From: Bryopsis sp. KO-2023
Taxonomy: Eukaryota > Chlorophyta > Ulvophyceae > Bryopsidales > Bryopsidaceae
Length of the DNA stretch: 64,000 nucleotides
Direction: 5' to 3'
Assembly: GCA_030272585.1 (NCBI GenBank)
Contig: BSYQ01000011.1
Span: forward strand, 1,178,001-1,242,000
Positions 3 to 56,712 of the stretch are shown here, one piece after another. Position 1 is the stretch's first letter. Each line of letters begins with the position of its first letter. Below the pieces are notes generated by a model that made no database searches, was not told the origin of the DNA, and worked only from the letters and a program-made list of their open reading frames with translations. A program made the position numbers and the translations under genes.

Positions 3-794
3 GATCATGGTGGAGACAGAGAAGGAGGAGAATTTGGCAGAGTGGGAATCAGTGGAGGTGCTGCTAGAGAGGAACAAGAAAGGGATGAAAGAGTGGAGGA
101 CCAGGACAGGATTGATCCCACGGGAGGACGAGAGGGAGGTAGTCAAGGTGGCAGCGGAATCAGAGAGAGGGCGGATCACAGTGATGGAGGTGGAGGAACG
201 GATGCAGGGATCGATCAAGCACAGATCAAAGAGGAGGAGGACAATCCCGGCGGGGACTGGGTTGAGGGGAACTGCTTTTTCTGCAGGTCGCGAAATGCAG
301 TGAAACCCATCGGCGGGGCATGTTCTCGGCACCAAGCCTGTCACCGGATTGGTTGTCGAGACCGTGCTTGGTTGGCGGGGAGCTTGGAGCTGGACATGAA
401 TGAAGGGGGCATGGGAACCTTTCGCAGGATATACGCTCCCGAATCGTCAATCGCACCGCCGGCAAACTTCTCCGATCAGACATGTTCTCTATGTCGATTG
501 ATCGGAGGAGCAAATCATTTCCGCTCCATCTACCCGGCGACCTCTCGACCCCGTTTGGAAATCAACCGCGCCACACATCGGGCTCGGAGTCATGTGCAAG
601 CGGATCAGTTCCCAGGAGCATGGGTCGACAATGAGCAGCAGAGCCATCCAGTGGAGACCCTCCTGGATGAGAGATTGATCGAAATCCATGGAGCGACCAC
701 TCCTCCACTCTCCCGAAAGAGGACTGCCCGAAAAGGAGCAACATCAGCAGCTGCAGCATCCAGCAAACGACAAAGGGGACCCAGTGGCAGCTAG
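3..794 (+). CDS. ORF3-type accessory protein of element G, RING-like zinc array (5' partial)
   Basis: The frame is open to the left edge, so the start is outside. The visible N-terminal part is hydrophilic and rich in Gly, Asp, Glu and Arg. A cysteine/histidine array spans 273-494: CFFC, then C-x2-H-x2-C, then after about 60 residues CSLC. The spacing matches the separate ORF3 proteins of B and F, although the second histidine ligand is not obvious here. The C-terminus is basic (KRTARKG, SSKRQRG) and could be a nuclear signal. It is the last ORF before the 3' LTR, the env position. No Env, RT or integrase motif is visible. Function is unknown; the zinc-binding fold is inferred from ligand spacing. 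Confidence 0.6.
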   Translation, partial: DHGGDREGGEFGRVGISGGAAREEQERDERVEDQDRIDPTGGREGGSQGGSGIRERADHSDGGGGTDAGIDQAQIKEEEDNPGGDWVEGNCFFCRSRNAVKPIGGACSRHQACHRIGCRDRAWLAGSLELDMNEGGMGTFRRIYAPESSIAPPANFSDQTCSLCRLIGGANHFRSIYPATSRPRLEINRATHRARSHVQADQFPGAWVDNEQQSHPVETLLDERLIEIHGATTPPLSRKRTARKGATSAAAASSKRQRGPSGS

Positions 795-4321: not shown

Positions 4322-7300
4322 TTAGGCTGTCGGCGGCGGCGGTGGTGGTGGTGGTGGCGGTCCTCCCTGACCTCCGCGACAGTGCTCCGGCGGCTCTCCT
4401 CCTGCTGCTGGATCGTCTGGACCTTCGTCTTCTCGGGGCCGCTTGGTTGCGCTGCCTCTCTCCAGGGGGATCTCGTCAGGGAACGGCCGACGGAGCTCGG
4501 GGTATCGCCCCCACATCTCCGCCGTCAGCGTGCGCCAGTATGCCGTTGTTGGGAAGTTTCTGGCTTCCGCTTCGCATCGCCAGCAGCGATTTTGGAAGAC
4601 CTCGTCGGCGGTGATGCCAGGGCGATACTCCGGGATCCATGAAAGGTCCGCCGCCGGGATGTCCCCCAGCGTGAGTTCGCGTCCGCGGCAGAAGAGGTCG
4701 GGGCGCCGCAAGGCCACGAGGATGGCCAACACATCCTTGGCACACGCTTTCCAGGATTTTCCAAAGCGGTCTCGCGAGCAGTGTCGGTGGTGCCCGGGTG
4801 TGTTAGCAAACTTACAGGCGGTTGGGATGTACGCGTTGGAGCCGGGCGGTTTTGAACAACGGCTGCAACGCGTACCCATCCCTGGAGTGCCGCCGCCGCT
4901 GCTCTGGCCGTGCTGTCCCTTTCCATCACCCGGTGCTGTTCCGTCTGGGGGCCCTTCGTCCTCGCCAGTCTCCGTATCCGTTCCTGAAAAATCCATGACG
5001 ATCTTCTTGAGCTTCCCTTTTCCTGAGGCGAGTCTAGTGGTTGGGCCCTTCCTTGGCGCTCCTCCCTTCGATGCTGGAGTCCCGCTTTGGCTTAATCCCG
5101 GGGTAGTTCCTGTGGGAGTTCCTGCTCCGAACGCGAATGGGGCTTGGACATTCTGGAACATCTGGAAGGGGCGTGGTGGCCGAGGTCCCGCCATGGGTGG
5201 AGCTGGTGGTCTGATTGGCCCTGGTGGCAGCAAGACGAGTTGGGAGGCTGGAGGCACTTCCTCCGTCGTTGGGAGTTCAGCTGGTGGATCCTGGGGTCCT
5301 GCTTGCTCCGCTTGGTGGGCAAACGGAACTGGATCAGGTTCCTCCACACGAGGCTGTGACACCCTCTCCTCCCATCCTCTCCGGTAATGCATCCCAGGCA
5401 GCGGCTGGTGTCCCGCCAACGACCGATCTCTTTCCTCCCTCTGCACCTCCGCCCATTCCTGAGCCGACAGTGGCTGTGGATGTGGTGGGCTTCCTGGGAT
5501 CACATCAGCTGGAGCTGGGGGTTCATCTTCTGGTGTTGTTGGCTGCTCCTCCCCCACTTTCTCCCCAGTCCCTGCTTCACTCTCAACCAATCCTGAGCCC
5601 TCCCCCACTGTGGTTTCCTCATGCTGCCCTCCTCCTGTGGCTGCTGTTGCTGCTGTAGCTGCTGTTGCTGCTGTTGATCCCTCCAGACCTCCTTGTCCAG
5701 GCTGATGGAGTGGCTGTTCTCCTGTTAATGTTGCTGTAGCTTCCTCCAAGTCTTCTGGACCCAACTGAGGAGGTGGCCTTCCTCCTTCCCCAATGTCCCC
5801 AGCCTTGAGGTTTTTCACCGTTTTCTTTCGTGGGTGGCTGCTTCGGGGGTGTAGCGATCCTTTTTCCTTCCCCGTCAGTTCCGCGATTCGATCCTTCTGG
5901 CGATCCAAGAGGTCCGCCATCTTCTTCATCCGCCTCCGTTGTTGCTCCCATTGATTCCACGGCACCATGTCGCAGGTAGCCTGCGACCCCTGATCCCGCT
6001 GCTCTTCTTCGTCGGTTTGGGTGGCAACATTCTGGGTTTCCGGCTGGGTCATATGGCTCGCAAGGATCGCCGCAAAGTACGCGGCCACTGCATCAATTTG
6101 CAGCTCCACCGGCAGATTTCGGAAGGTGGCCGGGAGTTCTACTGGTGGAGGTTGTGATGGCCCGGCTGCTGGTAAGGCGATCTCCACCATGGGCTCGCTG
6201 ACCAACTCCTCCACTGTCTCCTCCTCCTGCAATCCATATTCCGCCTCCAAATCTGCTGTATCGAGGCTGCCGGATTCAGCCATGGGTGTGTCGTCATTTC
6301 CTTGCCCTGGTTGATTTCCGCCACCCCCTTGCGATGACCCACTGCCCCCTCGCTCTGGCTGATCGCCGCCACCCTCACGTGCGCCACCGATTGGCCCTAC
6401 TCCGCCTCCGCCACTACTCAACACGCCGCATATGATGGCCAGGAAACATACGAATCGGAACATGGTCGCTGGGCTCTCGAAAAGTGCAAATTCGTCTAAC
6501 AATTCGCCGCCGCTGTCGGGTTTTTCTGCACTTCCGCCACGAGACTCCTCCACGTCCGTCCTCTCAATGAGGCGACACTGTACCCTGTCCACAGTCCATG
6601 CATCCCTTGGGGTCTGACCCACCTTTACCAAATCCCCACGTAATTCCTGGACCATCCATGGCCCCTGATTGAATTCCATCTCCTTGGGGTGGTAGGGGAA
6701 CCGAGTTGAGCACAACATCACCATGTCCCCTACTTTCAGTTCTGCTGGAGCTTTACCCCGCCTGATCGTCTCCCAGAGGTGCCCCAGCTGCTGTTTGACC
6801 CTTGCTTTCTGCAAGGCTCTGGCAATACTCCCCTCCTGAGCTTTCCTCTCCTCATTCATAAACCTCAGGGTGACCTGGCGCTGCAGCTCCACTGCATCTG
6901 CCCGGCGTAACTCCCCTCGCAATTCTGCCAAGCGTTCATTTCGTTTGGTTTTGGTGGAAAACTCCCGGAAAAACAATGCCTTGGCGGGGCTGAGTCCGGT
7001 GGAGGTGTGTTCCCTGGTGTTGATAGCATAAATCACCTCCTGCAGTTTCTCCGGCCATTGGGGCGTGATCCCGCCGCCACACTCCCTCCGCAATAGTTGT
7101 TGTATCTCCCGGTTCATTCTTTCGACCAGCCCATTGGTCTCCGGGTGGTATGGGCGCCCTTTCCTCAACTGGACTCCCCACTGCTGTAGAAGTTCTGCCA
7201 CCTCTCCTTCGAATTCACTCCCGTTATCTGTGATGATGGAGGCGGGCGGTCCATATGGATGGAACACCGAGGCCTTCAGCCACGCCGCCACCGCAGAACT

Positions 7301-7659
7301 CCTCTTACTCGTTAATGCCCCGGCGATCGTCCACTTGGTGAAGTAGTCTACCATGACTATCACATATTTTTCTCCCGTTCCGGTGGTGGGCAGGGTGATC
7401 AAGTCCATACCCAGTCTCTCCCAGGCTCTTAACGGTATATGCTGCCTTAATGGGTGTCGTTCCTTAGGCGCTTTCTGACTTCTTCTGCAGCTGTGGCACG
7501 TCTGCCACACTTGTTCTACCTCTTTCCTTATATATGGCCACCAGTATCTCTGCTGCACTTTCTGGCACAATCCTCTGCCGCCGATGTGCGCATTTTCTCT
7601 GTGGACTTTTCGGACCACAGTTGGCCTTTGCTCCTCTTTTGGCACCTCTAGCCATTCTC
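4322..7659 (-). CDS. A1 ORF3, main part: integrase core and tail fused to a signal-like segment and RING-like domain
   Basis: Second part of an ORF whose first 53 codons lie at 18271-18429; TRIM-B1 separates them. Joined length fits A2 apart from a 6-residue Ala-Thr repeat difference. In order: HHCC zinc region (HRENAHIGG...CHSC), DDE core (MVDYF, TDNGSEF, VERMN), a C-terminal integrase tail with GPWMV, then near codon 6463 a hydrophobic stretch MFRFVCFLAIICGVLSS. A long Gly/Pro/Glu-rich linker follows, then a cysteine array CSRC (4856-4867) ... H-x2-C-x2-D ... CWRC (4574-4585), and a poly-Pro end. No chromodomain. The linker-plus-zinc part occupies the position of the separate ORF3 in B and F. 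Confidence 0.85.
4574..4867 (-). other. RING-like cysteine/histidine array at the A1 ORF3 C-terminus
   Basis: Ligand order CxxC, C-x7-HH..HC-x2-D, then CxxC about 70 residues later. This is the most divergent of the four arrays: the sixth ligand is Asp and the middle spacing is longer. It is identical in A2 (57864-58157). Confidence 0.5.
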
Positions 7660-7730
7660 TGATACACGATACGGGACGTTGGTGGACCGGCCCGCCCCCT
7701 TTGCGGGTTGTGCCGCTTTATCCCGTATCA
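7660..7730 (-). repeat. TRIM 3' terminal repeat
   Basis: 71 bp, same sequence as 8127-8197. Begins TGATAC and ends GTATCA, a 6-bp terminal inverted repeat. Confidence 0.85.
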
Positions 7731-8049: not shown

Positions 8050-8126
8050 CTCACTCTCAACTTCCATGGCCTCGCTAGGACTCGAACTTGTGACCTTCGG
8101 ATCGCAAGTTCGGCTCCGAAACCAAA
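8050..8126 (-). other. TRIM PBS and tRNA-like B-box motif
   Basis: PBS at 8112-8124. Just downstream in element sense lies AAGTTCGAGTCC, a good match to the Pol III B box (GGTTCRANTCC type), preceded by a weak anticodon-arm-like stretch. The T stem does not pair cleanly and no acceptor stem is visible, so this is at most a degenerate tRNA-like segment. Confidence 0.3.
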
Positions 8127-8197
8127 TGATACACGATACGGGACGTTGGTGGACCGGCCCGCCCCCTTTGCGGGTTGTGCCGCTTTATCCCGTATCA
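8127..8197 (-). repeat. TRIM 5' terminal repeat
   Basis: 71 bp, identical to 7660-7730, directly beside the PBS. Seven bases (TCTCGAT, 8198-8204) separate it from the B1 LTR. Confidence 0.85.
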
Positions 8198-8204
8198 TCT
8201 CGAT

Positions 8205-8623
8205 TGATAGTGAAGCTTGTGGGTGACGCAATAGTGGTCGGCTGTGTTGGTTGGATTCGTGATAACTTGCTGGCTAACGCAAGTATACTTGTGGGGTTTG
8301 TTGGTTTAGACAACTCTCTAGCTAGCGCGGTTGTGAACGCTACTAGAGCACTTGATTGGATAAGTGATTGCGTCAGGCAAACACTTAGACACACACACAC
8401 AAACACACACACAAGCGGGAACACACCAATCCCACGAATCCCGAATTCTTACAAAGTAAAGTGAATGTCAAAACAACGAGTGGGCCTCTTAAGTACCCCT
8501 AAGTGTAGTACGCTGACGCATGCCCCAAACTCTGGGTCTAATCTGTCTTACTCGCGAACCCGCATGCGTCAGCCACCCTCGGCTCTATCCCAAACTACCT
8601 CGTATAGCGCTAAAAGACTAACA
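8205..8623 (-). repeat. B1 3' LTR
   Basis: 419 bp, TGTTAG...TATCA in element sense. Contains an AC-rich microsatellite (about 8390-8413) and an 11-bp inverted repeat CTGACGCATGC (8513-8523) / GCATGCGTCAG (8562-8572). A purine tract (about 8624-8642, GCGGGGGGGGCG in element sense) abuts it as PPT. Confidence 0.93.
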
Positions 8624-8804: not shown

Positions 8805-10619
8805 TTAACGCTGTTCCTGCGCTTGCGCTTGTTGGGTAGCACGCTGCTCCTGCGCATGCGCTTGCTGCACTGCACGATACCGGACACAGGGATCAAATGC
8901 GGCAGCCACCCTCTTGGACTTTAGGAATGGCAGATCCCTTGTGATGCCGGACACCTTGAGCTGCCGCTTCACACACATGTTGCAGTGTGGCAACTTCTCG
9001 TGCTCAGCCGGGAACGGAGGGATTTCTTCGAACGTCGAGCGTGTCAGCTTCAACATATGGGCAGGTAGAGAGAATGGGGAGACGGTGGCGATGGACTTGT
9101 TGTCCACTTCTGCGACTTTTTGGACCGCCGTGACGATGCGCCCCAGCATCGAGTATGCCAACCAGTGAGCATCACACACGAGGTGATACCCACAAGGAAG
9201 GACGGAATACTTCTTCTGCGTCAGCCGCTGAGCACTTGCTTGCATTGGGCTTCTCCCGCACCAAATGCACATGGGCAACTCGTGAAAGTGCCGGTTGCCG
9301 CGGTAATTTTGCAAGGCTCGGTCCCTGGGGTTAGTATATTGGACCTTCGGCCATTTCTCTGACGCAGTGATGGGGTTGCAAGCCTCCTCGATATCCTCCC
9401 GTGACAGGTTCACTTCGCTGGGTGCAGCATCCACTTTGTCTTGAGCAGCCGCCCTTAGTCTTCTGAGCTTAACCTTTTCTCGGAAAGCCCGAAGTGCTGC
9501 TTCTGTTGGAGCTAACTCCAACGGTGGATGAACCGCACGCTGAACCTCTGTCACCTGGCTTGGCCCTTCATCATTCCTGATTTCCCCGTCCTCCAGTTCA
9601 GAACTAGGACCTTCGAGCCTAGGAGGTGGACTGCCGAAGTCAATTTCTTCGTTAAAATCCAAGTCCAAAAGCTCCTCCTCTCTCATGTCGAATAAGTCCT
9701 CCCCCGGTGCTATTGCGGTAGCCTCATCTCCGGGAGTCTGAACTGTTGGCGCTGGTTGTGAGGGTGCTGGAGTCTTTAATGCGGCAGCCTTTAACTTGAG
9801 TAACAAGTTGGCTCTTGCTGCATCTCCAGGCATACGATCCCTCGGTGGCTCACCACCTTCATCGTCACCGTCCTCTCGCCTTCTCTTTCCGTGTGGATCT
9901 TCATCCCTACACGGCGAGCTTGGGCGTTTGTTTTTCCCTTTCCCCTTGCCCTTGCTTGAGCCTCCCGCATCATCGTCCTTGGACGGTTCCAGATCAAGTG
10001 TTGCGTTTGACAACAGAACTTGGACTTGGCGATCCAGTTCTTCGCGTACCCGTGGTGCTGGTACCGCCGGGTTCAAACGCAGCATCTTGTCCGTTGTTTC
10101 GCTCTGCACTTGAAGTTTTTCAGAGCCGTCTCTGAGGGACTCTCCCAGCAAATCGATCTGCAGCTCTTGTTCTGCCAATTCCTTCTTAAGGTTATTGGCT
10201 GCTGCACTCCACGCGGTTGCTACAGCTCGCTGCAGCGTTTCCTCTACCGCGGTAAATCGATCTACCATTCCCCCGAGAGCTTGTTTACGGAGGTCATTCT
10301 CACGATGGTTAGCCATCATGTGAGATTGGAACCTTTGCTTTTTCAGCTTCATGGCTTCCAATTTTTCTTCCAAGACCTTGGTCTTGTCCTCCGCTTCTTT
10401 CTTTTCCGCCTCCGCCTTATCCTTGGCTTTCTCCGCTGCCTCCTTCGCAGCCTCAGCTGCTTTCGTCCGGTCACTCAACTCTGAGAGCTGCCGGGTTAAG
10501 GCCTCATTGTTCTGCAGCACTTCCTCTGCGGTCGACGTAAAGTGCTGCAGCTCCTCTTCTTTTTGAGCTACCTCCGCTTCCAACCTCGCAATAATTGCGG
10601 CGGGTGTGTCGGCAGCCAT
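8805..10619 (-). CDS. B1 ORF3: coiled-coil protein with C-terminal RING-like zinc array
   Basis: 604 aa from the ATG at 10619 (context ATAATGG). An in-frame extension upstream to 10703 has no ATG. Residues about 10-165 are a long Ala/Glu/Lys heptad-like coiled coil; then a basic patch KGKGKNKRP and an acidic Pro-rich middle. The cysteine array is at residues about 450-548 (8973-9269): CIWC, C-x2-H-x2-C-x2-H-W, then CNMC about 60 residues later. The tail is rich in Gln-Ala-Gln-Glu. Ligand order fits a cross-brace RING-type fold with His at position 6. It is neither Gag, Pol nor a recognisable Env: there is no signal peptide or membrane segment. It sits after pol with its own TATA-like box, suggesting a separate transcript. 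Ubiquitin-ligase or nucleic-acid roles are possible but unproven. Confidence 0.75.
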   Translation of the reverse strand: MAADTPAAIIARLEAEVAQKEEELQHFTSTAEEVLQNNEALTRQLSELSDRTKAAEAAKEAAEKAKDKAEAEKKEAEDKTKVLEEKLEAMKLKKQRFQSHMMANHRENDLRKQALGGMVDRFTAVEETLQRAVATAWSAAANNLKKELAEQELQIDLLGESLRDGSEKLQVQSETTDKMLRLNPAVPAPRVREELDRQVQVLLSNATLDLEPSKDDDAGGSSKGKGKGKNKRPSSPCRDEDPHGKRRREDGDDEGGEPPRDRMPGDAARANLLLKLKAAALKTPAPSQPAPTVQTPGDEATAIAPGEDLFDMREEELLDLDFNEEIDFGSPPPRLEGPSSELEDGEIRNDEGPSQVTEVQRAVHPPLELAPTEAALRAFREKVKLRRLRAAAQDKVDAAPSEVNLSREDIEEACNPITASEKWPKVQYTNPRDRALQNYRGNRHFHELPMCIWCGRSPMQASAQRLTQKKYSVLPCGYHLVCDAHWLAYSMLGRIVTAVQKVAEVDNKSIATVSPFSLPAHMLKLTRSTFEEIPPFPAEHEKLPHCNMCVKRQLKVSGITRDLPFLKSKRVAAAFDPCVRYRAVQQAHAQEQRATQQAQAQEQR

Positions 10620-11068: not shown

Positions 11069-14000
11069 CTATTCTCTTCCTTTCTGCAACTCTTTTCTTT
11101 CTTTCTCTTTAAATGCGCGAAGTATATCTGGTGCGTTAACCAGATTAGCTTCAGGTTCCCAAGTAGCGTCAAGTAGATCGTATCCTTTCCACAGCACTAG
11201 GTATTCACGATTGCGTTTACCTCTAGCCCTTAGGATATTTTCGACCTCATACTCTACTTCGCTACCAATCAACTCTCCTTCTGGAGGTTGTATCTGCCTG
11301 CTGTTATCACTCGAGGCGTGATAACGCTTGAACTTAGAAACATGAAACACTGGGTGAATGAGCCATGTTTCCGGAAGTTGAACTCTGTAAGCCACCTTTG
11401 ATATTTTCTCCACAATTTCAAAGGGACCCACAAATCGACGGCGCAGTTTGGGACTCACTTTGTTCAAAGCAGCCAACGGAATAAAACGGCTTTTTATCAG
11501 GACTTTATCCCCTTTCTCAAAAGCAATGTCTTTCCTCTTCTTGTTTGCACTCACACACATTCTGTGTTGTGCTCTAGAGTAATATGCTTTTGCGGTATCT
11601 AAGTCCTGTGCCATCCGTGCTACCATAGTCTTAACTGCTTCCACTTGAAATTGCGTTGCCGTCCCACCAATGTTTGGTGTCTCTGGATGGTACCCATACA
11701 TCAAATATGCAGGTGCGAACCCTGTACTCGCATTCACTGCATTGTTTGCTGCAAACTCTGCTGTAGGTAAATACTCAACCCACTTATGGGGATACCTCTC
11801 AGCATATGGCCTTAAGAAATTTTCCAGAGTACGTATGGTAACCTCACTCTGCCCATCCGTCTGAGGGTGGTAAGCTGTACTCATACGAATCTCTGTACCC
11901 AGAGCTTTAAAAAGCGTCTGCCAGAACTTGCTGGTAAAGCGAGGGTCTCTATCAGACACAATCACTTTAGGTAGGCCATGGTTGCGGTAAACATGTTCGA
12001 TAAAAAGTTGGGCGTATCCTGCAGCGGTAATCTCTTTAGTACATGGGGCGAAATGCACAAACTTGGTAAGTCTATCGACAAAGACAGCTACAGCACTAAA
12101 CCCATTGGATGCTGGTAGATCTGTCACCAAGTCAGTGGTAATCTGCTCCCACTTCCGCTCAGGTATTGGCAGGGGTTGAAGTAAGCCCATAGGCTTCTGT
12201 GTGTCAGCCTTTATTTGTTGGCACACAGGGCATTCGCGCACAAATGCCTTCAACTCATTCATCCACCCCTTCCACCAATATCGCCGCGCTAGGATTTCTC
12301 CTGTTCGCGCTGGTCCTGTATGGCCTGCTGAAGGTGTCTCATGGCACTCCTTCATAATCTTATTGCGCTGGCCTTTAGGAACCACCACTTTCTCGACTAA
12401 TCCTCTCTTTGGGACCGTCCAGAGTATTCCCTCTCTGAGGAAATATCCCTCAACTTCCTCGCCACTCTCAAGCTTCCGCAATATCTTCACCAAGGAGTTA
12501 TCAGCTTGGAGGGCTTGTTTCCACTCGTCTTGGCTTGCTTGATGCACTTGCCAAGTGGAAATGTTCATCGCAGTTTCCACGGGCTTAGGAATACTGCGGG
12601 AGAGAGCATCTGCTAACACATTAGCCTTGCCTTTGATATAGGAGATCTTGGGGTTGATCGAAGTCAGGTACCCCGCCTCAAGCCATCTTGCTTGGGTTCT
12701 AGAAAGGTTCCTCTGCGACAGAATATGCGTCAGAGGTTGGTGGTCAGTGAACACTGTTACTCCACCCGCACAACCTTCTAGATAATGTCTCCACTGCACC
12801 ATCGCATAACATATTGCACACAACTCTTTGTCGTATGGTGCATAGTTAAGCTCGGCAGGCTTGAATCTACGTGAGAGGTAAGCTATTGGCTGTAGCCCCT
12901 CTCCGTGATCCTGTGTTAACACGGCACCGATGGCCTCATTCGACGCATCAGTGATCACAGTGTAAGGCAGTGACGCATCTGGAAAAATAAGGACGGGAGC
13001 TTGACTTAGACGCTTTTTCAGTTCATTGAATGCGCCACGCTCAACCTGTCCCCATCTCCAGGGATGGTCTTTTTTCACTAAGTCATGGAGTGGTCCAGCA
13101 ACATGTGCAAACTGGGGAATGAATTTCCTGTAGTATGAAACCATTCCAAGGAAACTACGTACATCACTAACACTCTGTAGTTCCTTCCACTCCTTCACTG
13201 CCTTCACTTTTTGTTCCTGTGGTTTTAACCCACTTCCGCTAATGCGGTAGCCAAGATAGTCTACTGTTGCGACAGCCAGCTCACTTTTACTTGCCTTAGC
13301 AAAAAGCTGATATTCTGCTAGTCGCGACAGAACTTTCTCTAAGTGTTCGGCATGCTGTTCCATGTTTTCAGAGAAGATGAGTATGTCATCGATAAAGACA
13401 ACAACAAAATCATCTAAAAACTCTGCGAGTAGGTCTTGCACTAGAGTTTGGAATTGCGCTGGGCAATTGGTTAGCCCAAAAGGCGCTACCAAAAACTCAA
13501 AGTGACCGTATCTCGTGCGGAACGCTGTTTTATCTGTATCAGATGGCCTTACTGGAAATTGCCAATAGCCTGATCGCAGATCTAACTTCGAGAACACTTT
13601 GGCTTTGAACACTCTATCCATCAATTCTTCTGGCAGGGGTAAAGGATATCGGTTTTTCACCGTCACCTTATTGATCCACCTGTAATCCACACACATCCTT
13701 AAGCCTCCATCCTTTTTCGGTACAAATAGGATTGGCGCGCCCCAAGGGGACTCGGATGGTTTGATTTTCTTCTGTTCCAGAAGGTAGTCCACTTGTGCTT
13801 TCACTTCATCCAGCTCTGCTGGTGAAAGCTTGTATATTGGACGATGGATAGGTGTTGGATCCTCCAGGTCTATCTTAAACTCATGACCTTTTCTCTTTGG
13901 AGGAATCCCTGGGGGTAAATCACGAGGGAACACACCACGGTGTGTTTCTACCACCTTTTTAATTTCGGCAGGGGTGTCTGAACGAATAAGTTTGCCAATC

Positions 14001-15079
14001 TCATCCTCAGTGTTGAATGGCTGTGTTCGCTCTATTGCGTCAGGCAATTCATGTTGGCCTAAAGCTTTCTCTTCAGACTCTTGCACTACAACCATGAATG
14101 CTGTCTCTGTTTTGAGATGACGCATCATTCTCTTAGCTGAACACTCAGTCACTGGCACTTCTTGCAGTATCGACTGTACTTTTCGTTCAGGTTCAATACT
14201 CTCTTGGGTTGGATGTCGCAACGGGAGATGAAACACTTGGCTGTTTTTGCAAACTGAAATCTCATTTTGCTGAAAGTCTATGCGGGGGTTTTCTTTCTGC
14301 AACCAGGGCATGCCCAATATTAGGTCATAACCAAGGTCTGGGAACAGATCCGCTTTCATTTTGCACTTCAGCCCTCCTATCTTTACTCGGAGGTTGTTAC
14401 AGCTGCCAGCCAGTTCTTTAATATCTCCGTTTGCCAACATTGCTCTCTTTGAGCTTGGTGTAATCGACAACCCGAGATCACGCGCTACCTTATCATTGAT
14501 ATAGTTTGCGGTACTTCCACAATCAATGAATGCATAAAGGTCCGTGGTCTTAATCCGTGCTTTTACTTCGTACCCTCTCACAGGCACTTCTTGAATTTTT
14601 AACAGAGGGCATGTGTCACCCTTGGTTGACGAAGTTGATCGAACTTCTGACACATTAACTCGCTCTGTGGTAGACCGCTGGGTTGTTTCTGACCCACTAT
14701 CGTCTACGTCTGCAGGCAGGGACTCCTGTAGACTACTCTGCGACTCCAATGAGCCCACAGATTCACTAACAGAGGGAAGAGATGCAGATGACGCATGAGG
14801 CGCGTCCATCTCATCCGGTGTGCTTTCCTTCTGTTCATTTTTCCAATCGCAGTTGTCATGTGCCGATTGGGTAGATGTGGAGAGTGTCTCTGTTCTCTCT
14901 TCACGCGGTGTACTAGTCCGCTCCTCAGGTTTTCCGCTGTGAGTACTTTTAACCTTTTTCGAGGCACCTACTTTTGATCTATGCTTCCTACGCCGCCTAC
15001 GAACTCTGTTTCGCTTACGACGTTTGCGTCGGCCAGGCTCAGACGAAGCAGTTTCCTGCCTGGCGGTCAGTTTAACATT
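11069..15079 (-). CDS. pol: B1 Pol: protease, RT, RNase H, integrase, chromodomain
   Basis: The -1 frame relative to Gag is open without a stop from the slip site at 15079, through a very basic segment (KRRKRNRVRRRRRK), to the stop at 11069. An ATG at 14809 is replaced by GTG in B2, so frameshift entry is preferred over internal initiation. Counting from 14809: protease DCGS near residue 95, RT about 330-510 with FIDD near 470, RNase H (TDASNEAIGAVL...ELCAI...TDHQ) about 600-730, integrase zinc region with CPVC, DDE core (TDLVTD near 891, SDRDPRF near 955, SEVTIRTLENF near 986), GPFEIVEK tail, and a chromodomain YLVLWKGYDLLDATWEP about 1190-1240. The chromodomain is expected to direct integration to marked chromatin. 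Confidence 0.93.
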   Translation of the reverse strand, partial: NVKLTARQETASSEPGRRKRRKRNRVRRRRRKHRSKVGASKKVKSTHSGKPEERTSTPREERTETLSTSTQSAHDNCDWKNEQKESTPDEMDAPHASSASLPSVSESVGSLESQSSLQESLPADVDDSGSETTQRSTTERVNVSEVRSTSSTKGDTCPLLKIQEVPVRGYEVKARIKTTDLYAFIDCGSTANYINDKVARDLGLSITPSSKRAMLANGDIKELAGSCNNLRVKIGGLKCKMKADLFPDLGYDLILGMPWLQKENPRIDFQQNEISVCKNSQVFHLPLRHPTQESIEPERKVQSILQEVPVTECSAKRMMRHLKTETAFMVVVQESEEKALGQHELPDAIERTQPFNTEDEIGKLIRSDTPAEIKKVVETHRGVFPRDLPPGIPPKRKGHEFKIDLEDPTPIHRPIYKLSPAELDEVKAQVDYLLEQKKIKPSESPWGAPILFVPKKDGGLRMCVDYRWINKVTVKNRYPLPLPEELMDRVFKAKVFSKLDLRSGYWQFPVRPSDTDKTAFRTRYGHFEFLVAPFGLTNCPAQFQTLVQDLLAEFLDDFVVVFIDDILIFSENMEQHAEHLEKVLSRLAEYQLFAKASKSELAVATVDYLGYRISGSGLKPQEQKVKAVKEWKELQSVSDVRSFLGMVSYYRKFIPQFAHVAGPLHDLVKKDHPWRWGQVERGAFNELKKRLSQAPVLIFPDASLPYTVITDASNEAIGAVLTQDHGEGLQPIAYLSRRFKPAELNYAPYDKELCAICYAMVQWRHYLEGCAGGVTVFTDHQPLTHILSQRNLSRTQARWLEAGYLTSINPKISYIKGKANVLADALSRSIPKPVETAMNISTWQVHQASQDEWKQALQADNSLVKILRKLESGEEVEGYFLREGILWTVPKRGLVEKVVVPKGQRNKIMKECHETPSAGHTGPARTGEILARRYWWKGWMNELKAFVRECPVCQQIKADTQKPMGLLQPLPIPERKWEQITTDLVTDLPASNGFSAVAVFVDRLTKFVHFAPCTKEITAAGYAQLFIEHVYRNHGLPKVIVSDRDPRFTSKFWQTLFKALGTEIRMSTAYHPQTDGQSEVTIRTLENFLRPYAERYPHKWVEYLPTAEFAANNAVNASTGFAPAYLMYGYHPETPNIGGTATQFQVEAVKTMVARMAQDLDTAKAYYSRAQHRMCVSANKKRKDIAFEKGDKVLIKSRFIPLAALNKVSPKLRRRFVGPFEIVEKISKVAYRVQLPETWLIHPVFHVSKFKRYHASSDNSRQIQPPEGELIGSEVEYEVENILRARGKRNREYLVLWKGYDLLDATWEPEANLVNAPDILRAFKEKERKELQKGRE

Positions 15080-17706
15080 TTTTTTACATCGGGGAGGTTT
15101 TTCACCTCCTCCAATCTAGGACATTGCCTCACAGGATGACCCTTCTTTCCACAAAGATAACAATTATATCCTCCTCCCCCCTGGGGGTTCTGTCTTCCCT
15201 GATTGGCTTGTCCTCTTCCACGGTTACCACCACCGCGTCCACGTCCACCACCACCACGTCCTCCTCCTCGTCCTTGTTGCTGTTGCTGCTGCACTCCTGC
15301 GGCAGCTTGTGGTGGTGCTTGGGCTGGTGGTGTGGGGTTCTGCTGCTGCTGACCCTGATTCTGGCCTTTCTTCTTTCTTCCACCACGCCAGACTCCTTTC
15401 TTTTTCTGATTGGTCTGCCCTCCTTGGCCTTGTGTTCCAACTCCAAGGGCTTCCAATCGTTCGGCGGATATGATGGCGGCCTCGACATCTCGAGGTACCG
15501 TTGCTGCGACTAACTTCTGAACTTCACTTTTAAGTCCATCCACGAAGAGCAAATACTGGTGATCCTCTTCGAGGTCTGGAATCCTCAAGACTAACCGCTG
15601 AAACTCTTTGACGAACTGTTTCACGGTTCCAGTCTGCTTGAGTTTGTGGAGGTCACGCCACGCTTCATCTCGATCACTAGAGAATTCGAAAGCTGTAGCT
15701 AAGCCATCCATGAAGTCCATCCAGTCACGGAAGGGTGGTCTTTCACCTCGGTGAATTTTCAACTCTTGCATCGTTAACCAATCCGAGGCAGCTCCATAAA
15801 GGTTAGTGGCCATAATCGATTGCCACTGTGCTTCATGCACTCCGCAGGTTCTCAAGTACCGCGTCATGAGCACTTGCCATTTACGGGCTTTTGGTTCTCC
15901 ACTTCCGTTAAATGCACGAGGCATTTGCAACTTGACGGTGCTAGGCAACCACTGTCCTTGCCTAGGAGGTCCTGGCCCTGCCGGTCCAGCGCCACCTCCA
16001 CCTCCATCAGGAGGTCCACCGGGAGGTCCACCGCCTCCACCATCTCCACCGCCGCCACCACCTCCTCCGCCATCAGGCGCACCTGGAATGCGGGAAGGTG
16101 GGCGGTTTCGTCTGTCGCGGTAATCATCACCGCCATCATCATCTGGGTCGTCATCACCAGGGTCTCCAAAGTTACCACGCATGCGAGGAACTCGACTGGG
16201 TCCACCAGTAGACTCATATGAACCAAGTGCAGCAAAGGGATTATTTTCTACCCTTGCTCCCAATGCACTTAACCCAAGTCCCAATCTTCCAGTACGTGTG
16301 GGGATCTGCATGGGTTCTTTTCCTTTCTCTTCTCTGACCTGTGCCTTAGCACGCTCCAGGTCAATTTGATATAACACTTCTGCTGAGGAGAGAACTCTTG
16401 GGTTAGTTCGTGTGGGTCTACGTGATCCATCGGCAGAGTCGGGTTCTGAGATGCGTACTCCAGGCTGAGCTCTTGTACTTGGAGGTATCAACTGAGGGAA
16501 TGTGAAATCAGCGTCTGGTGCGCTGTCCACTGCAGTGCATGGTGGTGCTTCTGCAGCAACAATTTCACCCTCCTCGACCTGTACTGCTGGAGGAGCCGGT
16601 ATTGTTGAGGTTCCTGCCCCAACCATTCCTACCGCGAAGCTCTGGTCTAGTGGCGGCCATGATGCAGCCAACTGCTTTACTGATTTCTTCGGCAGCGGCA
16701 TCCCAAAGGCTGAGTCCTCAGGCTCAGGAGAAGTTGATTCTTCTCGCTCTGGTGATACTGCACGAGCATCACTTCCACTTTGGGCACTCTGACTTCCGCC
16801 ACTCACATCCTCCATGCTTCGTTCCAGGCCAGATAATCTTAAGGCAACCACATCAGCTGCATCTTGCTGCTGATCCCAGGTCTTGGATGCCTTTTTCTCC
16901 AAGGCAATCAAATCTTTTTGAATTGCTACTCTTGAGCTCTGCAAACGCTTCACCTCAGCACCTTGCTTATGCAAGGACTCCCGAAACAATTCTAGAGTCC
17001 GTTCGACTTTTTCGTTGGAATCCGCAACAGTTCCTAATAAGCCTTCAATTCTCCGCCCTTGAACAAGGGATAACTCGGAGAGTTGTTTTAACTGAAGTGC
17101 TGATGCTTCAGTTGCTTCTTTTAGGTCAGCAAAACGAGAGTCCGCTAGAATGTCTGCGGCATCCATTCTCCTCGTTATTGCATCCACAGAAGCTTTGATC
17201 TCGGCTCTTTCTTTTCTATGGTCGATATCTTGGCGTAAGAGCCTCTGCTCGTATCGACTATGTTGAGCCGCTACTGAATCCAGCTTCTGCTGTTGCGACA
17301 CCACCGCATGCTGTGTGGCCTCAACCTGTTGCGCATGCTGGTGCTGTGTTTCCAGCGCCTGCCCGATCACCTCTGATGCGCCAGCCAGTTGGTTCGACAC
17401 AGAGGCCTCAGCATGGGCTAGCCTCTGCCCCAGTGTCTGGTCAACTTGCTGCAGGTGACCCCTTAGCCCGTGGGCTAAATCGTCCACACGGTCATGGACC
17501 GCATCCACATCCTCTCTTAAGGCTTCCGCATCAGCTCCCATGTCTATGTCGACAGCTGCTTGCTGGACATTGTGGATGTTCTGGACGTTTATTTGTTGAT
17601 ACACAACATTGGGTGCGTCAGGCAATTCCTCATCGAACTCAGGTTCAATCCCTGGCTCTTCAACTTGAGGCTCGCGCACTGCCAATGCGTGTTCACGGTC
17701 AGCCAT
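15067..17706 (-). CDS. gag: B1 Gag with CCHC zinc knuckle
   Basis: 879 aa from the ATG at 17706 (MADREHAL). The N-terminal third is a long heptad-like region (about 60-290) rich in Gln, Ala and Glu. Then comes a Pro/Ser/Glu-rich linker, a Gly/Pro tract around residue 540, and the retrotransposon Gag capsid region about 582-750 (FNGSGEPKARKWQ...FVDGLKSEV). A Gln/Arg/Gly-rich RNA-binding stretch precedes the knuckle CYLCGKKGHPVRQC near residue 843. The slippery run A-AAA-AAA lies just before the stop, so most ribosomes end Gag here and a minority continue in Pol. Confidence 0.93.
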   Translation of the reverse strand: MADREHALAVREPQVEEPGIEPEFDEELPDAPNVVYQQINVQNIHNVQQAAVDIDMGADAEALREDVDAVHDRVDDLAHGLRGHLQQVDQTLGQRLAHAEASVSNQLAGASEVIGQALETQHQHAQQVEATQHAVVSQQQKLDSVAAQHSRYEQRLLRQDIDHRKERAEIKASVDAITRRMDAADILADSRFADLKEATEASALQLKQLSELSLVQGRRIEGLLGTVADSNEKVERTLELFRESLHKQGAEVKRLQSSRVAIQKDLIALEKKASKTWDQQQDAADVVALRLSGLERSMEDVSGGSQSAQSGSDARAVSPEREESTSPEPEDSAFGMPLPKKSVKQLAASWPPLDQSFAVGMVGAGTSTIPAPPAVQVEEGEIVAAEAPPCTAVDSAPDADFTFPQLIPPSTRAQPGVRISEPDSADGSRRPTRTNPRVLSSAEVLYQIDLERAKAQVREEKGKEPMQIPTRTGRLGLGLSALGARVENNPFAALGSYESTGGPSRVPRMRGNFGDPGDDDPDDDGGDDYRDRRNRPPSRIPGAPDGGGGGGGGGDGGGGGPPGGPPDGGGGGAGPAGPGPPRQGQWLPSTVKLQMPRAFNGSGEPKARKWQVLMTRYLRTCGVHEAQWQSIMATNLYGAASDWLTMQELKIHRGERPPFRDWMDFMDGLATAFEFSSDRDEAWRDLHKLKQTGTVKQFVKEFQRLVLRIPDLEEDHQYLLFVDGLKSEVQKLVAATVPRDVEAAIISAERLEALGVGTQGQGGQTNQKKKGVWRGGRKKKGQNQGQQQQNPTPPAQAPPQAAAGVQQQQQQGRGGGRGGGGRGRGGGNRGRGQANQGRQNPQGGGGYNCYLCGKKGHPVRQCPRLEEVKNLPDVKKMLN
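15079..15085 (-). promoter_or_regulatory. B1 -1 frameshift site A AAA AAA
   Basis: In element sense GTA AAA AAA ATG TTA AAC TGA: a canonical slippery heptamer five codons before the Gag stop. Slipping back one base enters the open Pol frame (AAT GTT AAA CTG ...). B2 keeps the same run at 25803-25809. A downstream stimulatory structure was not assessed. Confidence 0.7.
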
Positions 17707-17836
17707 GATCTCTCAGCCACTATTTGGGAGTACTCAACAACCACGGTTGGAGTTTCTCTCTACCAAACAAACAAACAAAAACGTTTGTTGCGCCACGTTC
17801 ACAAGTTTCGATCTCAAGAACTTAAAGTTCTTGCCT

Positions 17837-17851: not shown

Positions 17852-18270
17852 TGATAGTGAAGCTTGTGGGTGACGCAATAGTGGTCGGCTGTGTTGGTTG
17901 GATTCGTGATAACTTGCTGGCTAACGCAAGTATACTTGTGGGGTTTGTTGGTTTAGACAACTCTCTAGCTAGCGCGGTTGTGAACGCTACTAGAGCACTT
18001 GATTGGATAAGTGATTGCGTCAGGCAAACACTTAGACACACACACACAAACACACACACAAGCGGGAACACACCAATCCCACGAATCCCGAATTCTTACA
18101 AAGTAAAGTGAATGTCAAAACAACGAGTGGGCCTCTTAAGTACCCCTAAGTGTAGTACGCTGACGCATGCCCCAAACTCTGGGTCTAATCTGTCTTACTC
18201 GCGAACCCGCATGCGTCAGCCACCCTCGGCTCTATCCCAAACTACCTCGTATAGCGCTAAAAGACTAACA
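17852..18270 (-). repeat. B1 5' LTR
   Basis: 419 bp, reads identical to 8205-8623. Followed on the right by the target duplication TTCTC. Confidence 0.93.
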
Positions 18271-19528: not shown

Positions 19529-21343
19529 TTAACGCTGTTCCGGCGCTTGCGCTTGCTGAATAGCACGCTGCTCCTGCGCATGCGCTTGCTGCACTGCACG
19601 ATACCGGACACAGGGATCAAATGCGGCAGCCACCCTCTTGGACTTAAGGAATGGCAGATCCCTTGTGATGCCGGACACCTTGAGCTGCCGCTTCACACAC
19701 ATGTTGCAGTGTGGCAACTTCTCGTGCTCAGCCGGGAACGGAGGGATTTCTTCGAACGTCGAGCGTGTCAGCTTCAACATATGGGCAGGTAGAGAGAATG
19801 GGGAGACGGTGGCGATGGACTTGTTGTCCACTTCCGCGACTTTTTGGACCGCCGTGACGATGCGCCCCAGCATCGAGTATGCCAACCAGTGAGCATCACA
19901 CACGAGGTGATACCCACAAGGAAGGACGGAATACTTCTTCTGCGTCAGCCGCTGAGCACTTGCTTGCATTGGGCTTCTCCCGCACCAAATGCACATGGGC
20001 AACTCGTGAAAGTGCCGGTTGCCGCGGTAATTTTGCAAGGCTCGGTCCCTGGGGTTCGTATATTGGACCTTCGGCCATTTCTCTGACGCAGTGATGGGGT
20101 TGCAAGCCTCCTCGATATCCTCCCGTGACAGGTTCACTTCGCTGGGTGCAGCATCCACTTTGTCCTGAGCAGCCGCCCTTAGTCTCCTGAGCTTAACCTT
20201 TTCTCGGAAAGCCCGAAGTGCTGCTTCTGTTGGAGCTAACTCCAACGGTGGATGGACCGCACGCTGAACCTCTGTCACCTGGCTTGGCCCTTCATCATTC
20301 CGTATTTCCCCGTCCTCCAGTTCAGAACTAGGACCTTCGAGCCTAGGAGGTGGACTGCCGAAGTCAATTTCTTCGTTAAAATCCAAGTCCAAAAGCTCCT
20401 CCTCTCTCATGTCGAATAAGTCCTCCCCCGGTGCTATTGCGGTAGCCTCATCTCCGGGAGTCTGAACTGTTGGCGCTGGTTGTGAGGGTGCTGGAGTCTT
20501 TAATGCGGCAGCCTTTAACTTGAGTAACAAGTTGGCTCTTGCTGCATCTCCAGGCATACGATCCCTCGGTGGCTCACCACCTTCATCGTCACCGTCCTCT
20601 CGCCTTCTCTTTCCGTGTGGATCTTCATCCCTACACGGCGAGCTTGGGCGTTTGTTTTTCCCTTTCCCCTTGCCCTTGCTTGAGCCTCCCGCATCATCGT
20701 CCTTGGACGGTTCCAGATCAAGTGTTGCGTTTGACAACAGAACTTGGACTTGGCGATCCAGTTCTTCGCGTACCCGTGGTGCTGGTACCGCCGGGTTCAA
20801 ACGCAGCATCTTGTCCGTTGTTTCGCTCTGCACTTGAAGTTTTTCAGAGCCGTCTCTGAGGGACTCTCCCAGCAAATCGATCTGCAGCTCTTGTTCTGCC
20901 AATTCCTTCTTAAGGTTATTGGCTGCTGCACTCCACGCGGTTGCTACAGCTCGCTGCAGCGTTTCCTCTACCGCGGTAAATCGATCCACCATTCCCCCAA
21001 GAGCTTGCTTACGGAGGTCATTCTCACGATGGTTAGCCATCATGTGAGATTGGAACCTTTGCTTTTTCAGCTTCATGGCTTCCAATTTTTCTTCCAAGAC
21101 CTTGGTCTTGTCCTCCGCTTCTTTCTTTTCCGCCTCCGCCTTATCCTTGGCTTTCTCCGCTGCCTCCTTCGCAGCCTCAGCTGCTTTCGTCCGGTCACTC
21201 AACTCTGAGAGTTGCCGGGTTAAGGCCTCATTGTTCTGCAGCACTTCCTCTGCGGTCGACGTAAAGTGCTGCAGCTCCTCTTCTTTTTGAGCTACCTCCG
21301 CTTCCAACCTCGCAATAATTGCGGCGGGTGTATCGGCAGCCAT
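19529..21343 (-). CDS. B2 ORF3: coiled-coil protein with C-terminal RING-like zinc array
   Basis: 604 aa from the ATG at 21343, nearly identical to the B1 protein (few differences, such as the last Gln-rich tail). All eight putative zinc ligands are kept: CIWC, C-x2-H-x2-C-x2-H, CNMC. An open frame of this length in two independently inserted copies argues that the protein is needed by the element. Function is unknown. Confidence 0.75.
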   Translation of the reverse strand: MAADTPAAIIARLEAEVAQKEEELQHFTSTAEEVLQNNEALTRQLSELSDRTKAAEAAKEAAEKAKDKAEAEKKEAEDKTKVLEEKLEAMKLKKQRFQSHMMANHRENDLRKQALGGMVDRFTAVEETLQRAVATAWSAAANNLKKELAEQELQIDLLGESLRDGSEKLQVQSETTDKMLRLNPAVPAPRVREELDRQVQVLLSNATLDLEPSKDDDAGGSSKGKGKGKNKRPSSPCRDEDPHGKRRREDGDDEGGEPPRDRMPGDAARANLLLKLKAAALKTPAPSQPAPTVQTPGDEATAIAPGEDLFDMREEELLDLDFNEEIDFGSPPPRLEGPSSELEDGEIRNDEGPSQVTEVQRAVHPPLELAPTEAALRAFREKVKLRRLRAAAQDKVDAAPSEVNLSREDIEEACNPITASEKWPKVQYTNPRDRALQNYRGNRHFHELPMCIWCGRSPMQASAQRLTQKKYSVLPCGYHLVCDAHWLAYSMLGRIVTAVQKVAEVDNKSIATVSPFSLPAHMLKLTRSTFEEIPPFPAEHEKLPHCNMCVKRQLKVSGITRDLPFLKSKRVAAAFDPCVRYRAVQQAHAQEQRAIQQAQAPEQR

Positions 21344-39352: not shown

Positions 39353-40106
39353 CTAAAGAGGTTGTTTCCGCCGCCTTGTCCGCCTTTCTTCCCGCTTAGA
39401 GCGGATTTCCTCTTTGGTCGGCAAGCGCGTGCGGTTTCTGAGATACTCTGCCAAGATATCGCTGGCATTGGCCAGGTGGGCTTCTGGCTCCCAGGTGGCT
39501 TCCATCAAATCATAGCCCTTCCACAGAATCAAGTACTCCCGACGGTTGGGTGTGCCTCGATCCCGCAGAATACGCTCGACCTCATATTCAATGGCGCCAT
39601 CCACCAACTCCCCTTCGGGAGGTTCCACCTCCCGCTCATCATCTTCTGACAAGCGGTTGTATGCCTTCAGCTTGGAGACATGGAAGGTAGAATGAATAGT
39701 CCAATGGGGTGGTAGTTGCAGGCGATAAGCGACTGTGGATATCGCTTTGTCCACTTTGAATGGCCCGACAAACCTCCGGCGGATTTTTGGTGGGATCTTT
39801 TGCAAGGATTGCAGCGGAATAAATGTACTCCGCACCAAAACTTCATCCCCTTCTTTGAAGATTACTTCCCGCCGCCGTTTGTTCGCTTGGACACACATCC
39901 GCTCTTGTGCGGTTGCATACTGCTGCTTTGCCTGCTGCAGTTGCTCGTCCATTCGTTTCACCATTTCGGTTGCCATTTCGGACTCTTCTTTCGCCGTTAA
40001 CTTTTTCTGCACGGTAATTTGTCCCATATGCTGCCCATACAATAAGTGTGCTGGGGCATAGCCGGTTGACACATTGCGGGAGTTGTTGGCAGCAAATTCC
40101 GCTGTC
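39353..40106 (-). CDS. pol: F Pol C-terminus: integrase end and chromodomain (interrupted)
   Basis: Resumes at TAEFAANNSRNVSTG and continues through the integrase C-terminal region (GDEVLVRSTFIPL, RRRFVGPFKVDK, PPHWTIHSTFHVSKLK) to a chromodomain (YEVERILRDRG, YLILWKGYDLMEATWEP) and a basic tail. The preceding coding part is at 55412-56175. The sequence is closest to B Pol in this window. The frame is intact apart from the D insertion. Confidence 0.9.
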
Positions 40107-40387
40107 TGTAACCCCAAACCACGTCGCCTCCACCGATTTCGTCGTCCCTGCAGCGGGAGTAGGTGTGTTTGGTAGTAATCGGGAAGGACAAGACTTAGTT
40201 GGGCTAGATTGGGTTGATCCGGCTTCGAGTAGACCTTGATTTGGATCAAGTACATTTGTGATGGGATGTGGGAAGATATATTGGACGAGTTTATGGACGT
40301 TGGAACCTTTTTGCTTTGGATTGTAAGTCTTCCTTTGGAGTGGGACTGTGGCGTGTGTGACAAGAGCGGTCAAGACGACGTTTTGGG
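40107..40387 (+). repeat. D 5' LTR
   Basis: 281 bp, starts TGTAACCCCAAACC. The inner end TTTTGGG is directly followed by the PBS TGGTTTCGGAGCC. Confidence 0.92.
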
Positions 40388-40400
40388 TGGTTTCGGAGCC
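40388..40400 (+). promoter_or_regulatory. D primer binding site
   Basis: TGGTTTCGGAGCC, identical to A and C. Confidence 0.75.
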
Positions 40401-55107: not shown

Positions 55108-55123
55108 GGTTACAGCTGTAACC
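55108..55123 (+). promoter_or_regulatory. D junction palindrome
   Basis: GGTTACAGCTGTAACC across the LTR start (55117), after the PPT GGGGGGGAAAA. Confidence 0.6.
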
Positions 55124-55405
55124 CCAAACCACGTCGCCTCCACCGATTTCGTCGTCCCTGCAGCGGGAGTAGGTGTGTTTGGTAGTAATCGGGAAGGACA
55201 AGACTTAGTTGGGCTAGATTGGGTTGATCCGGCTTCGAGTAGACCTTGATTTGGATCAAGTACATTTGTGATGGGATGTGGGAAGATATATTGGACGAGT
55301 TTATGGACGTTGGAACCTTTTTGCTTTGGATTGTAAGTCTTCCTTTGGAGTGGGACTGTGGCGTGTGTGACAAGAGCGGTCAAGACGACGTTTTGGGAGG
55401 TTACA
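55117..55405 (+). repeat. D 3' LTR
   Basis: 289 bp: the 281 bp of the 5' LTR plus terminal AGGTTACA. Followed by GCTGTC. Confidence 0.92.
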
Positions 55406-56175: not shown

Positions 56176-56712
56176 TGTAACCACAAATAGGGTAACCTTG
56201 ACCGCTGGGGTCACCCCTGCAGCCGTACTTAACGGTGGTGATGGCGTTTCTGCAGAACGGGAACGGCGGAAGTGGGGACAGCCCCTCTTGAATTTGATCA
56301 CACGGCCTTTGCAAGGCACCTTACTCAGGACTCTTCACACAAGCTTTCTTACAACAATCAATAAAGGTCCAAACTCGAATAAACACAAAAGCCTCACCCA
56401 GAATGTCCAATAACCTAAGATCAGCCATTAAATAGGCTGCCGCCTGACTCACCCTAGTCCCACTGATCACCTAGGATCCCACCTACTGATGGGGACTACC
56501 TAACCTATCAAGCCTAGCTGATCTTCCTAACCTCCCTCAATCCCTTCCCTTAGTCTCTACCCCTAGGACCGTCCAACCTAGTCATTTCCGCAGCTGGACT
56601 GCTACTTCCAGGCTGTGGCTGGACTGTCCTAACTACCCCTCCTCTACCCGATAGCACTCTGGCCTTGGCCAGTGTGACGAAATCGGTGGAGGCGACGTGG
56701 TTTGGGGTTACA
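56176..56712 (-). repeat. A2 3' LTR
   Basis: 537 bp, same as the A1 LTR with a few substitutions (for example GGATCCCACC versus GGATCCCTCC). The junction palindrome is at 56706-56721 and the PPT just after. Confidence 0.92.

Follow-up and report, generated by a model that had tools for sequence, protein, structure and literature searches.

What protein is encoded between pol and the 3′ LTR, in the position of an envelope gene, in Ty3/gypsy retrotransposons of Bryopsis sp. KO-2023, and how widely is it shared among element families? The question is raised by a 64,000-nucleotide stretch of DNA (the window; 51% G+C) from a 91-Mb host genome of 28 contigs, whose 107 matches to the light-harvesting family mark a photosynthetic eukaryote. 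Several Ty3/gypsy elements are nested within the window, and a first-pass annotation of its sequence proposed that four families – A, B, F and G – share a conserved accessory gene (ORF3) whose product ends in a RING-like zinc array.

Position of ORF3 in the nested elements

Element B is present in two copies. In copy 1, gag, a pol with chromodomain and ORF3 follow one another in this order, all on the minus strand. A Pfam scan identified Retrotrans_gag in gag (15067–17712), with a CCHC knuckle below cut-off, and protease, reverse transcriptase, RNase H, integrase and chromodomain in pol (11069–15115). ORF3 is open from an ATG at 10619 to a stop at 8805 and encodes 604 amino acids, with an N-terminal coiled-coil-like region, a basic/acidic linker and a C-terminal zinc array (8973–9269). 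The LTRs (3′, 8205–8623; 5′, 17852–18270) are identical and have TG...CA ends, and a PBS-like TGGTTTCGGAGCGAG lies two bases inside the 5′ LTR on the minus strand. Copy 2, 0.6 kb from copy 1 on a stretch whose remaining parts match element A, has its own ORF3 (19529–21343, minus strand) and zinc array (19697–19993, minus strand). Its LTR pair is also identical, with TG...CA ends and a PBS-like stretch, and the copy is bordered on both sides by GTTCT, which marks a target duplication of 5 bp. Copy 1 shows no visible duplication of this kind.

The remaining families place ORF3 similarly. Element F encodes a 622-residue ORF3 counted from its ATG (37163–39031, minus strand; array 37280–37540) behind a pol end with SH3_Tf2-1 and chromodomain (39353–40105, minus strand) that is interrupted upstream and is 56% identical to B over 223 residues, linking F to B. 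In element A, integrase and ORF3 form one open frame of 1131 residues in which no chromodomain was found (4322–7717, minus strand; array 4574–4867); a second copy has the same single-frame arrangement over 1184 residues (57612–61166, minus strand; array 57864–58157). Element G contributes the C-terminal part of an ORF3 (3–794, plus strand; array 273–494) that is truncated by the window edge, its 5′ end lying beyond, and the N-terminus at its own locus is unlike that of another copy, L021. Read from another G copy, ORF3 lies behind integrase plus one further frame. An accessory ORF of a Ty3/gypsy element is expected to lie within the LTRs, past integrase and on the strand of pol. B shows all of this; for F and A the position was read behind chromodomain or integrase, and for G behind integrase in another copy. 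In A3, one of the further lineages described below, the pol end appears by eye to be in frame with ORF3.

The further frame of element G encodes 187 charged, helical-looking residues between integrase and ORF3 (L021, L080; G000:C7, about 2590500–2593800).

A Cys/His array recurs in 15 ORF3 lineages

We observed the arrays at exactly the positions that the first-pass annotation had given for B, F, G and both A copies, and the CGxHxVCxxHW motif that it reported as common to B and F is literally present in both. The layouts are CxxC-x21-CxxHxxCxxH-x60-CxxC in B, CxxC-x12-CxxHxxCxxH-x57-CxxC in F, CxxC-x12-CxxHxxCx4C-x42-CxxC in G and CxxC-x13-C-x8-HxxC-x11-C-x52-CxxC in A. Two details required correction. 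The last loop, put at 60–70 residues, spans 42–60 in the four window families, and the sixth ligand, described as His or Asp, is indeed His in B and F, but it is Cys in G and A and an Asp ligand is unnecessary.

A loose pattern for the array matches 6 of the 155 open frames of at least 100 amino acids in the window (B, B2, F, G, A and A′), and a stricter one matches four, excluding the two A frames. In 300 shuffles of residues within frames, the loose pattern matched a mean of 0.017 frames (maximum 1) and the strict pattern none. The Cys/His layout is far above chance; since the patterns were composed from arrays already seen, the shuffles establish no more than that residue composition does not by itself produce the layout.

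The count of four families proved too low. In the host genome we collected representatives of 15 ORF3 lineages, namely A, A2, A3, B, F, F2, F3, G and G2–G8. The B ORF3 gave 339 candidates, and all 70 that were scored match at 98% identity or more, 62 of them free of stops; with the B array alone, all 150 scored of 275 candidates match at this level, which places B at no fewer than 150 near-identical copies. Scoring 67 of 227 candidates for the F ORF3 yielded 74 matches, including relatives at 38–45% identity. For the G ORF3, all 115 candidates were scored and 105 matches range from 100% down to 25% identity, and the A array (59 of 59 scored) gave 58 matches, 40 at 94% or more and the rest down to 26%. 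Queries with the G4 array (121 candidates, all scored and all matching) and the F2 array (150 of 151 candidates scored, all 150 matching) added lineages at a loose E of 10, a limit that may have let in a few chance hits among the weakest. Some lineages are rare: G2 was seen once, A2 twice, A3 three times, and G4 and G5 five times each. Because G/G2 and G4/G5 are close pairs (71% identical over the matched part of ORF3, 77–78% over the array), independent lineages number nearer 13 than 15.

Likeness outside the array varies. F2 matches F almost end to end (residues 40–655, 41%) and G3 aligns along the length of G at 29%, and remote matches to the 263-residue G query fall chiefly on residues 88–212, the array with what follows it. 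The array queries taken from A, B, F2 and G4 contain little else and are uninformative on similarity elsewhere.

All 15 lineages keep the opening CxxC, a later Cys, HxxC, a sixth ligand and the closing CxxC, with seven ligands invariant; the sixth is His in B, F, F2 and F3 and Cys in the remaining 11. The gaps range over 12–21 residues between C2 and C3, 2–8 between C3 and His, 2–11 between C5 and ligand 6, and 38–60 in the last loop. Ligand 6 follows C5 by x2 only in the F/B types (His, with a loop of 53–60), by x4 in G types and by x8–11 in A types. The sole fixed inner pair is H-x2-C, rigid in every lineage while the C3-to-His gap varies, which disfavors a RING-type site built from C3 and H4. 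We infer that C1, C2, H4 and C5 most likely form the first zinc site and that C7, C8, ligand 6 and C3 most likely form the second; with H-x2-C as the single rigid inner pair, sequential sites of the LIM kind fit as well as a cross-brace.

Arrays of B also occur at regular distances. Five lie in succession at a spacing of 10,264 bp (G000:C9:273001-314503), and pairs at 9,649–9,678 bp, about the length of the element minus one LTR, occur at C3:7827458/7837120, C14:72561/82239 and C14:612809/622458. This spacing suggests head-to-tail elements with common LTRs.

Relatedness of the arrays

We compared array profiles using hhalign with local settings and set seven pairs against 100 column shuffles (full) and 100 shuffles that retain the Cys/His columns (ligand-keeping). 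The F set matches the B array profile with a score of 39.2 (E 3.2e-6), and the F/B set matches the A set with a score of 28.0 (E 4.6e-4); in both cases 0 of 100 full and 0 of 100 ligand-keeping shuffles reach the score. The F and G sets score 26.4 (E 5.6e-4), equaled by none of the full shuffles and one of the 100 ligand-keeping ones. Within G, three of four sub-group pairs give E values of 4e-6 to 5e-9, and G7/G8 against G6 gives only 0.0017. On these values, the B and F arrays are firmly joined as homologs – related beyond their ligands, where the first-pass annotation had found the proteins unalike by eye apart from the motif – and the G-type lineages form one family, firmly so in three of the four sub-group pairs run. 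The profiles argue with moderate strength that A joins F/B, and weakly for a join of F to G.

Other pairs are closer to the shuffled background. The F/B set against the full G set scores 20.9, which no full shuffle but 24 of the 100 ligand-keeping ones attain; the joined F/B/G set against A scores 19.7 (1 and 3 of 100); and G against A scores 15.1 (10 and 18 of 100). Among unshuffled pairs, the F set alone against A gives E 0.0085 and B against the G set 0.011. A comparison with fewer sequences gave 2.9e-5 for G–F, 3.5e-4 for F–B, 0.023 for G–A and 0.21 for A–F. The proposal of one array common to all four families is thus only partly supported: F–B and F/B–A pass and F–G is borderline, but G–A fails.

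These weaker pairs bear on a different explanation, that the A, G and F/B arrays have separate origins and resemble one another only through the layout imposed by eight ligands, which would be compatible with any of the functional readings considered below. The G–A result, the ligand-keeping shuffles that equal F/B against the full G set, the joined F/B/G set against A and the modest E value of F alone against A are all what separate origins would produce. We nevertheless regard separate origins as rather unlikely, given the F–B, F/B–A and F–G scores, the same position of ORF3 in the window families and the similar overall plan of the proteins.

As the first-pass annotation proposed, the array is not confined to one type of element: it occurs with a chromodomain in B and F and without in A. 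In integrase, B is distant from both A and G (24–27% identity). By score, the A and G integrases are each other's best match at 27% identity, in a pairwise comparison only. A further integrase fragment in the window (55093–56334), which need not belong to F, is 69% identical to B. On these sequence data, the grouping of the arrays and that of the integrases are without clear agreement.

Comparison with RING, PHD and LIM domains

The array shares the RING order of ligands, CxxC...C..H..C..[CH]...CxxC, but spacing, last loop, the residue after C7 and Pfam scores all differ. A RING follows the pattern C3-x(1-3)-H4-x(2-3)-[CH]-x2-C with a loop of 4–48 residues to C7, and the arrays fail this spacing. 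For reference we used 16 host RINGs that were readable by a RING-shaped pattern (loops of 4–48 allowed) among 20 fetched loci, and that are canonical by choice. The C3-to-His gap is x2 or more in all 15 arrays, compared with x1 in 14 of the 16 host RINGs; the last loop is 38–60 residues, compared with 10–16 in all 16; and a Pro after C7 is present in one of 15 arrays, compared with 16 of 16.

Contrary to the RING-like reading first proposed, no RING, PHD or FYVE model reached the Pfam cut-off in any scanned ORF3, and 11 arrays scanned alone gave no RING match at E values up to 10. By comparison, one host RING scores E 8.8e-18. The host genome yields 44 zf-RING_2 matches, which served as the RING reference, and 22 PHD matches. 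Sub-threshold RING hints are confined to two of the 15 lineages, G7 (XB3/XBAT31 RING, E 0.0088) and F3 (zf-RING_5, E 1.1); both cover the first half of the array, and G8, a relative of G7, lacks any hint. The helical part of F3 matches the BRE1 model at E 0.098, also below cut-off. In profile comparison, the F/B/G set matches the 16 host RINGs at E 0.0056, a score equaled by 0 of 100 full shuffles (narrowly, 17.9 against 17.3) and by 7 of 100 ligand-keeping ones. This is weaker than an unrelated control, RING against the integrase H2C2 domain (E 0.0014); the F/B/G set against H2C2 gives E 0.079. The likeness of the array profiles to RING is thus about what the ligand layout alone yields.

We accordingly reject membership in the RING family, given the absence of matches above cut-off and the spacings unlike those of the 16 host RINGs, and in the PHD family, of which no model reached the Pfam cut-off in scanned ORF3s. 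LIM domains combine CxxC, then HxxC and a closing CxxC, with two zincs in sequence; the array has these elements too, but adds a Cys before the His and a long last loop, and no LIM match was obtained in the Pfam scans; membership in the LIM family is rejected as well.

Proteins that combine a coiled coil with a C-terminal RING, such as Bre1/RNF20, and the viral ICP0 provide precedents for a role in which ORF3, as a RING-like ubiquitin E3, would eliminate a silencing factor of the host. Such an enzyme would fit the eight potential ligands, which follow the RING order, and the sub-cut-off matches of G7 and F3, including that of the F3 helical part to BRE1. Set against the empty Pfam scans, the differences from host RINGs and a profile score below that of the unrelated control, they leave an E3 role improbable.

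Searches for relatives

Protein database searches returned 213 candidates for the B array region, none at E 0.01 or better, and 8000 scored candidates for four G-type ORF3s, none at E 1 or better; candidates were limited to those of similar length with common 5-residue words, so that absence is not proven. In the same database, the integrase–chromodomain part of B pol matched 5396 of 7999 scored candidates at E 1e-10 or better, the best three at 65–69% identity. Relatives of the element are thus present in that database and kin of ORF3 were not found there. Among the 120 pol relatives listed, the loose array pattern had no match and the array profiles reached E 0.1 at best. A search of viral contigs gave no relative of B pol, and a scan of genome contigs identified one, 49% identical, on a contig that ends shortly past pol.

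Searching the PDB by sequence gave no match for the B array, an 11-array profile or the G profile, and three weak matches for the A profile (E 0.1–1.1). An NCBIfam scan of seven ORF3s of the 15 lineages produced matches that were all below cut-off and all on coiled-coil parts. An ORF between pol and the 3′ LTR is already known: additional ORFs of unknown function are marked in elements shown in Figure 3 of PMC2864245, and sense aORFs of plant LTR retrotransposons occupy this position, are env-like and in some cases have transmembrane domains (PMC7264820). The plant aORFs share position and strand with ORF3, and the words zinc, coiled and RING are absent from the main text of PMC7264820. Family-specific ORF3s of bdelloid rotifer LTR retrotransposons, according to PMC5408684, encode GDSL or DEDDy enzymes or env-like proteins, the DEDDy-like type having been acquired at least twice; these include non-envelope types as well, but here one zinc layout recurs over many lineages. 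What appears to be new is the zinc domain, of which we found no description among the titles and abstract openings listed by literature searches or in passages of PMC7264820, PMC2864245, PMC10309623, PMC8226300, PMC5408684 and PMC13317346. As far as Pfam, NCBIfam, the PDB and this limited literature extend, the domain seems to be undescribed so far.

Selection and architecture of ORF3

Purifying selection acts on ORF3 in B, F and G, the three lineages tested, and in B and G it is strongest at the array. Pooled dN/dS over the array is 0.00 in B (8 copies; 0 nonsynonymous and 42 synonymous pair-summed changes), 0.13 in F (12 copies) and 0.10 in G (11 copies), values that serve as indications because pair sums count common branches repeatedly. 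The part before the array gives 0.05, 0.13 and 0.34 and the part after it 0.20, 0.17 and 0.18 in B, F and G, respectively. Between G and G2, dN/dS is 0.08 in the array and 0.30 ahead of it. F shows no extra constraint on the array relative to the preceding part. The recurrence over lineages and this selection bear out the proposal of a conserved accessory gene in the env position.

N-terminal coiled coils had been proposed for B and F. We observed a heptad pattern in both, and in 10 of the 15 lineages overall the part before the array beats its shuffles (at most 8 of 200; B, F, F2, F3, G, G2, G3, G6, G7 and A3). The test fails in A, A2, G4, G5 and G8, among which A2, G4 and G5 were fetched without their start. 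Matches of the coiled-coil parts to models of SMC and further coiled-coil proteins stay below cut-off. NLS-like K-[KR]-x-[KR] runs, which are short and common in basic proteins, are present outside the array in 11 of 15 lineages (A, A2, B, F, F2, F3, G, G2, G3, G6 and G8); G7 and A3 lack one, and G4 and G5 have only one, within the array. A portion of the runs in G, G2, F2 and F3 precedes the start codon, but each of these proteins has others inside it.

A 19-residue window above 1.6, our measure of a membrane-like segment, was not seen in 13 of 15 lineages, three of them (A2, G4 and G5) fetched without the start. The exceptions are A (2.00; window 6398–6463, minus strand) and A3 (1.83; L050), each with a hydrophobic, signal-peptide-like stretch only at the start of ORF3, behind integrase. 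With no such segment seen in these 13 lineages, we reject the envelope reading, the hydrophobic start of A and A3 being an unexplained exception.

Possible roles of ORF3

Since the module matches no named family searched, ORF3 is probably a helper of the element life cycle. The best parallel by description is CERV of the Caenorhabditis element Cer1, which occupies the env position of a Gypsy-type element and is the product of a spliced mRNA; its account in PMC10309623 reports multimerization in models, predicted coiled coils and invariant cysteines that may form an RNA-binding C4 finger and that are essential for export of genomic RNA. The two differ in that CERV has a C4 loop, compared with 7–8 ligands in ORF3, a G-protein-like domain and another host (PMC10309623, as described there).

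By analogy with CERV or Rev, we tentatively propose that ORF3 is a multimerizing, probably nuclear accessory protein that acts on the RNA of its own element, and RNA export or handling is the function we consider likeliest, with some hesitation. The proposal builds on a common plan. Most lineages have a putatively self-associating helical region at the N-terminus; a charged linker follows, in many cases with NLS-like runs, and the zinc module closes the protein at its C-terminus. In favor of the proposal are the env position on the strand of pol, the spread over 15 lineages, the purifying selection, the heptad pattern, the NLS-like runs, the 13 lineages in which no membrane-like segment was seen and the CERV precedent. 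ORF3 would be made apart from Gag-Pol or, in the A type, cut from Pol; the in-frame fusion with integrase would make a separate mRNA unnecessary in A. The protein would multimerize through its helical region and enter the nucleus, where the zinc module would grip the RNA of the element, and unspliced genomic RNA would thereby be exported, translated and packaged. Counted against an RNA-export role are the heptad failures, the missing NLS of G7 and A3 and its restriction to the array in G4 and G5, the fusion with integrase in A, the hydrophobic starts of A and A3, and the F array being under no more constraint than the preceding part.

Two further roles draw on the same features. Like VANC, a transposon-encoded anti-silencing protein of Arabidopsis Vandal elements (PMC13317346), ORF3 might be a nuclear DNA-binding factor that binds non-coding DNA motifs of its own element and lifts methylation. 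The NLS-like runs of 11 lineages, the zinc module, the divergence among lineages and the VANC precedent are what such a factor would show, but VANC comes from a DNA transposon; we consider this role unlikely. ORF3 might instead be a structural or assembly cofactor of the particle – a Gag-like chaperone, a nucleocapsid helper or an envelope relic. The env position, the helical N-terminus and the hydrophobic start of A and A3 point that way, and the A ORF3, in frame with integrase, could enter particles within Pol. Against a particle cofactor stand the 13 lineages without a membrane-like segment and the CCHC-like knuckle that B gag already has, which make this role a poor prospect.

In a broader form of the RNA-regulator proposal, Ty3/gypsy elements of this photosynthetic lineage, whether or not they have a chromodomain, would share as their third gene a single ancient zinc domain that matches nothing in Pfam, NCBIfam or the PDB, and selection would maintain it as a regulator of the Rev/CERV type. 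We regard this combined claim as doubtful. If true, post-transcriptional self-regulation by an accessory protein would characterize these elements in general and would no longer be special to retroviruses. That the module recurs in 15 lineages, and that the elements have intact recent copies, suggests a step of the cycle beyond Gag and Pol, and the small size of the array makes direct structural and binding tests feasible.

Other repeats in the window

Several other repeats were observed. The gag of element A contains direct repeats with a 90-bp period (33917–34936) that encode a repeated acidic 30-residue unit, and direct repeats with an 80-bp period and seven copies in register lie at 53277–54056. 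A 287-bp stretch occurs at 40106–40392 and 55116–55402 (99.7% identical), adjoins the broken ends of two B-like pol genes and looks like a repeated insertion. Beside B copy 1, at about 8064–8140, we noticed by eye a tRNA-like 3′ half in a stretch bounded by repeated GATACACGATACGGGACG, possibly a short interspersed element.
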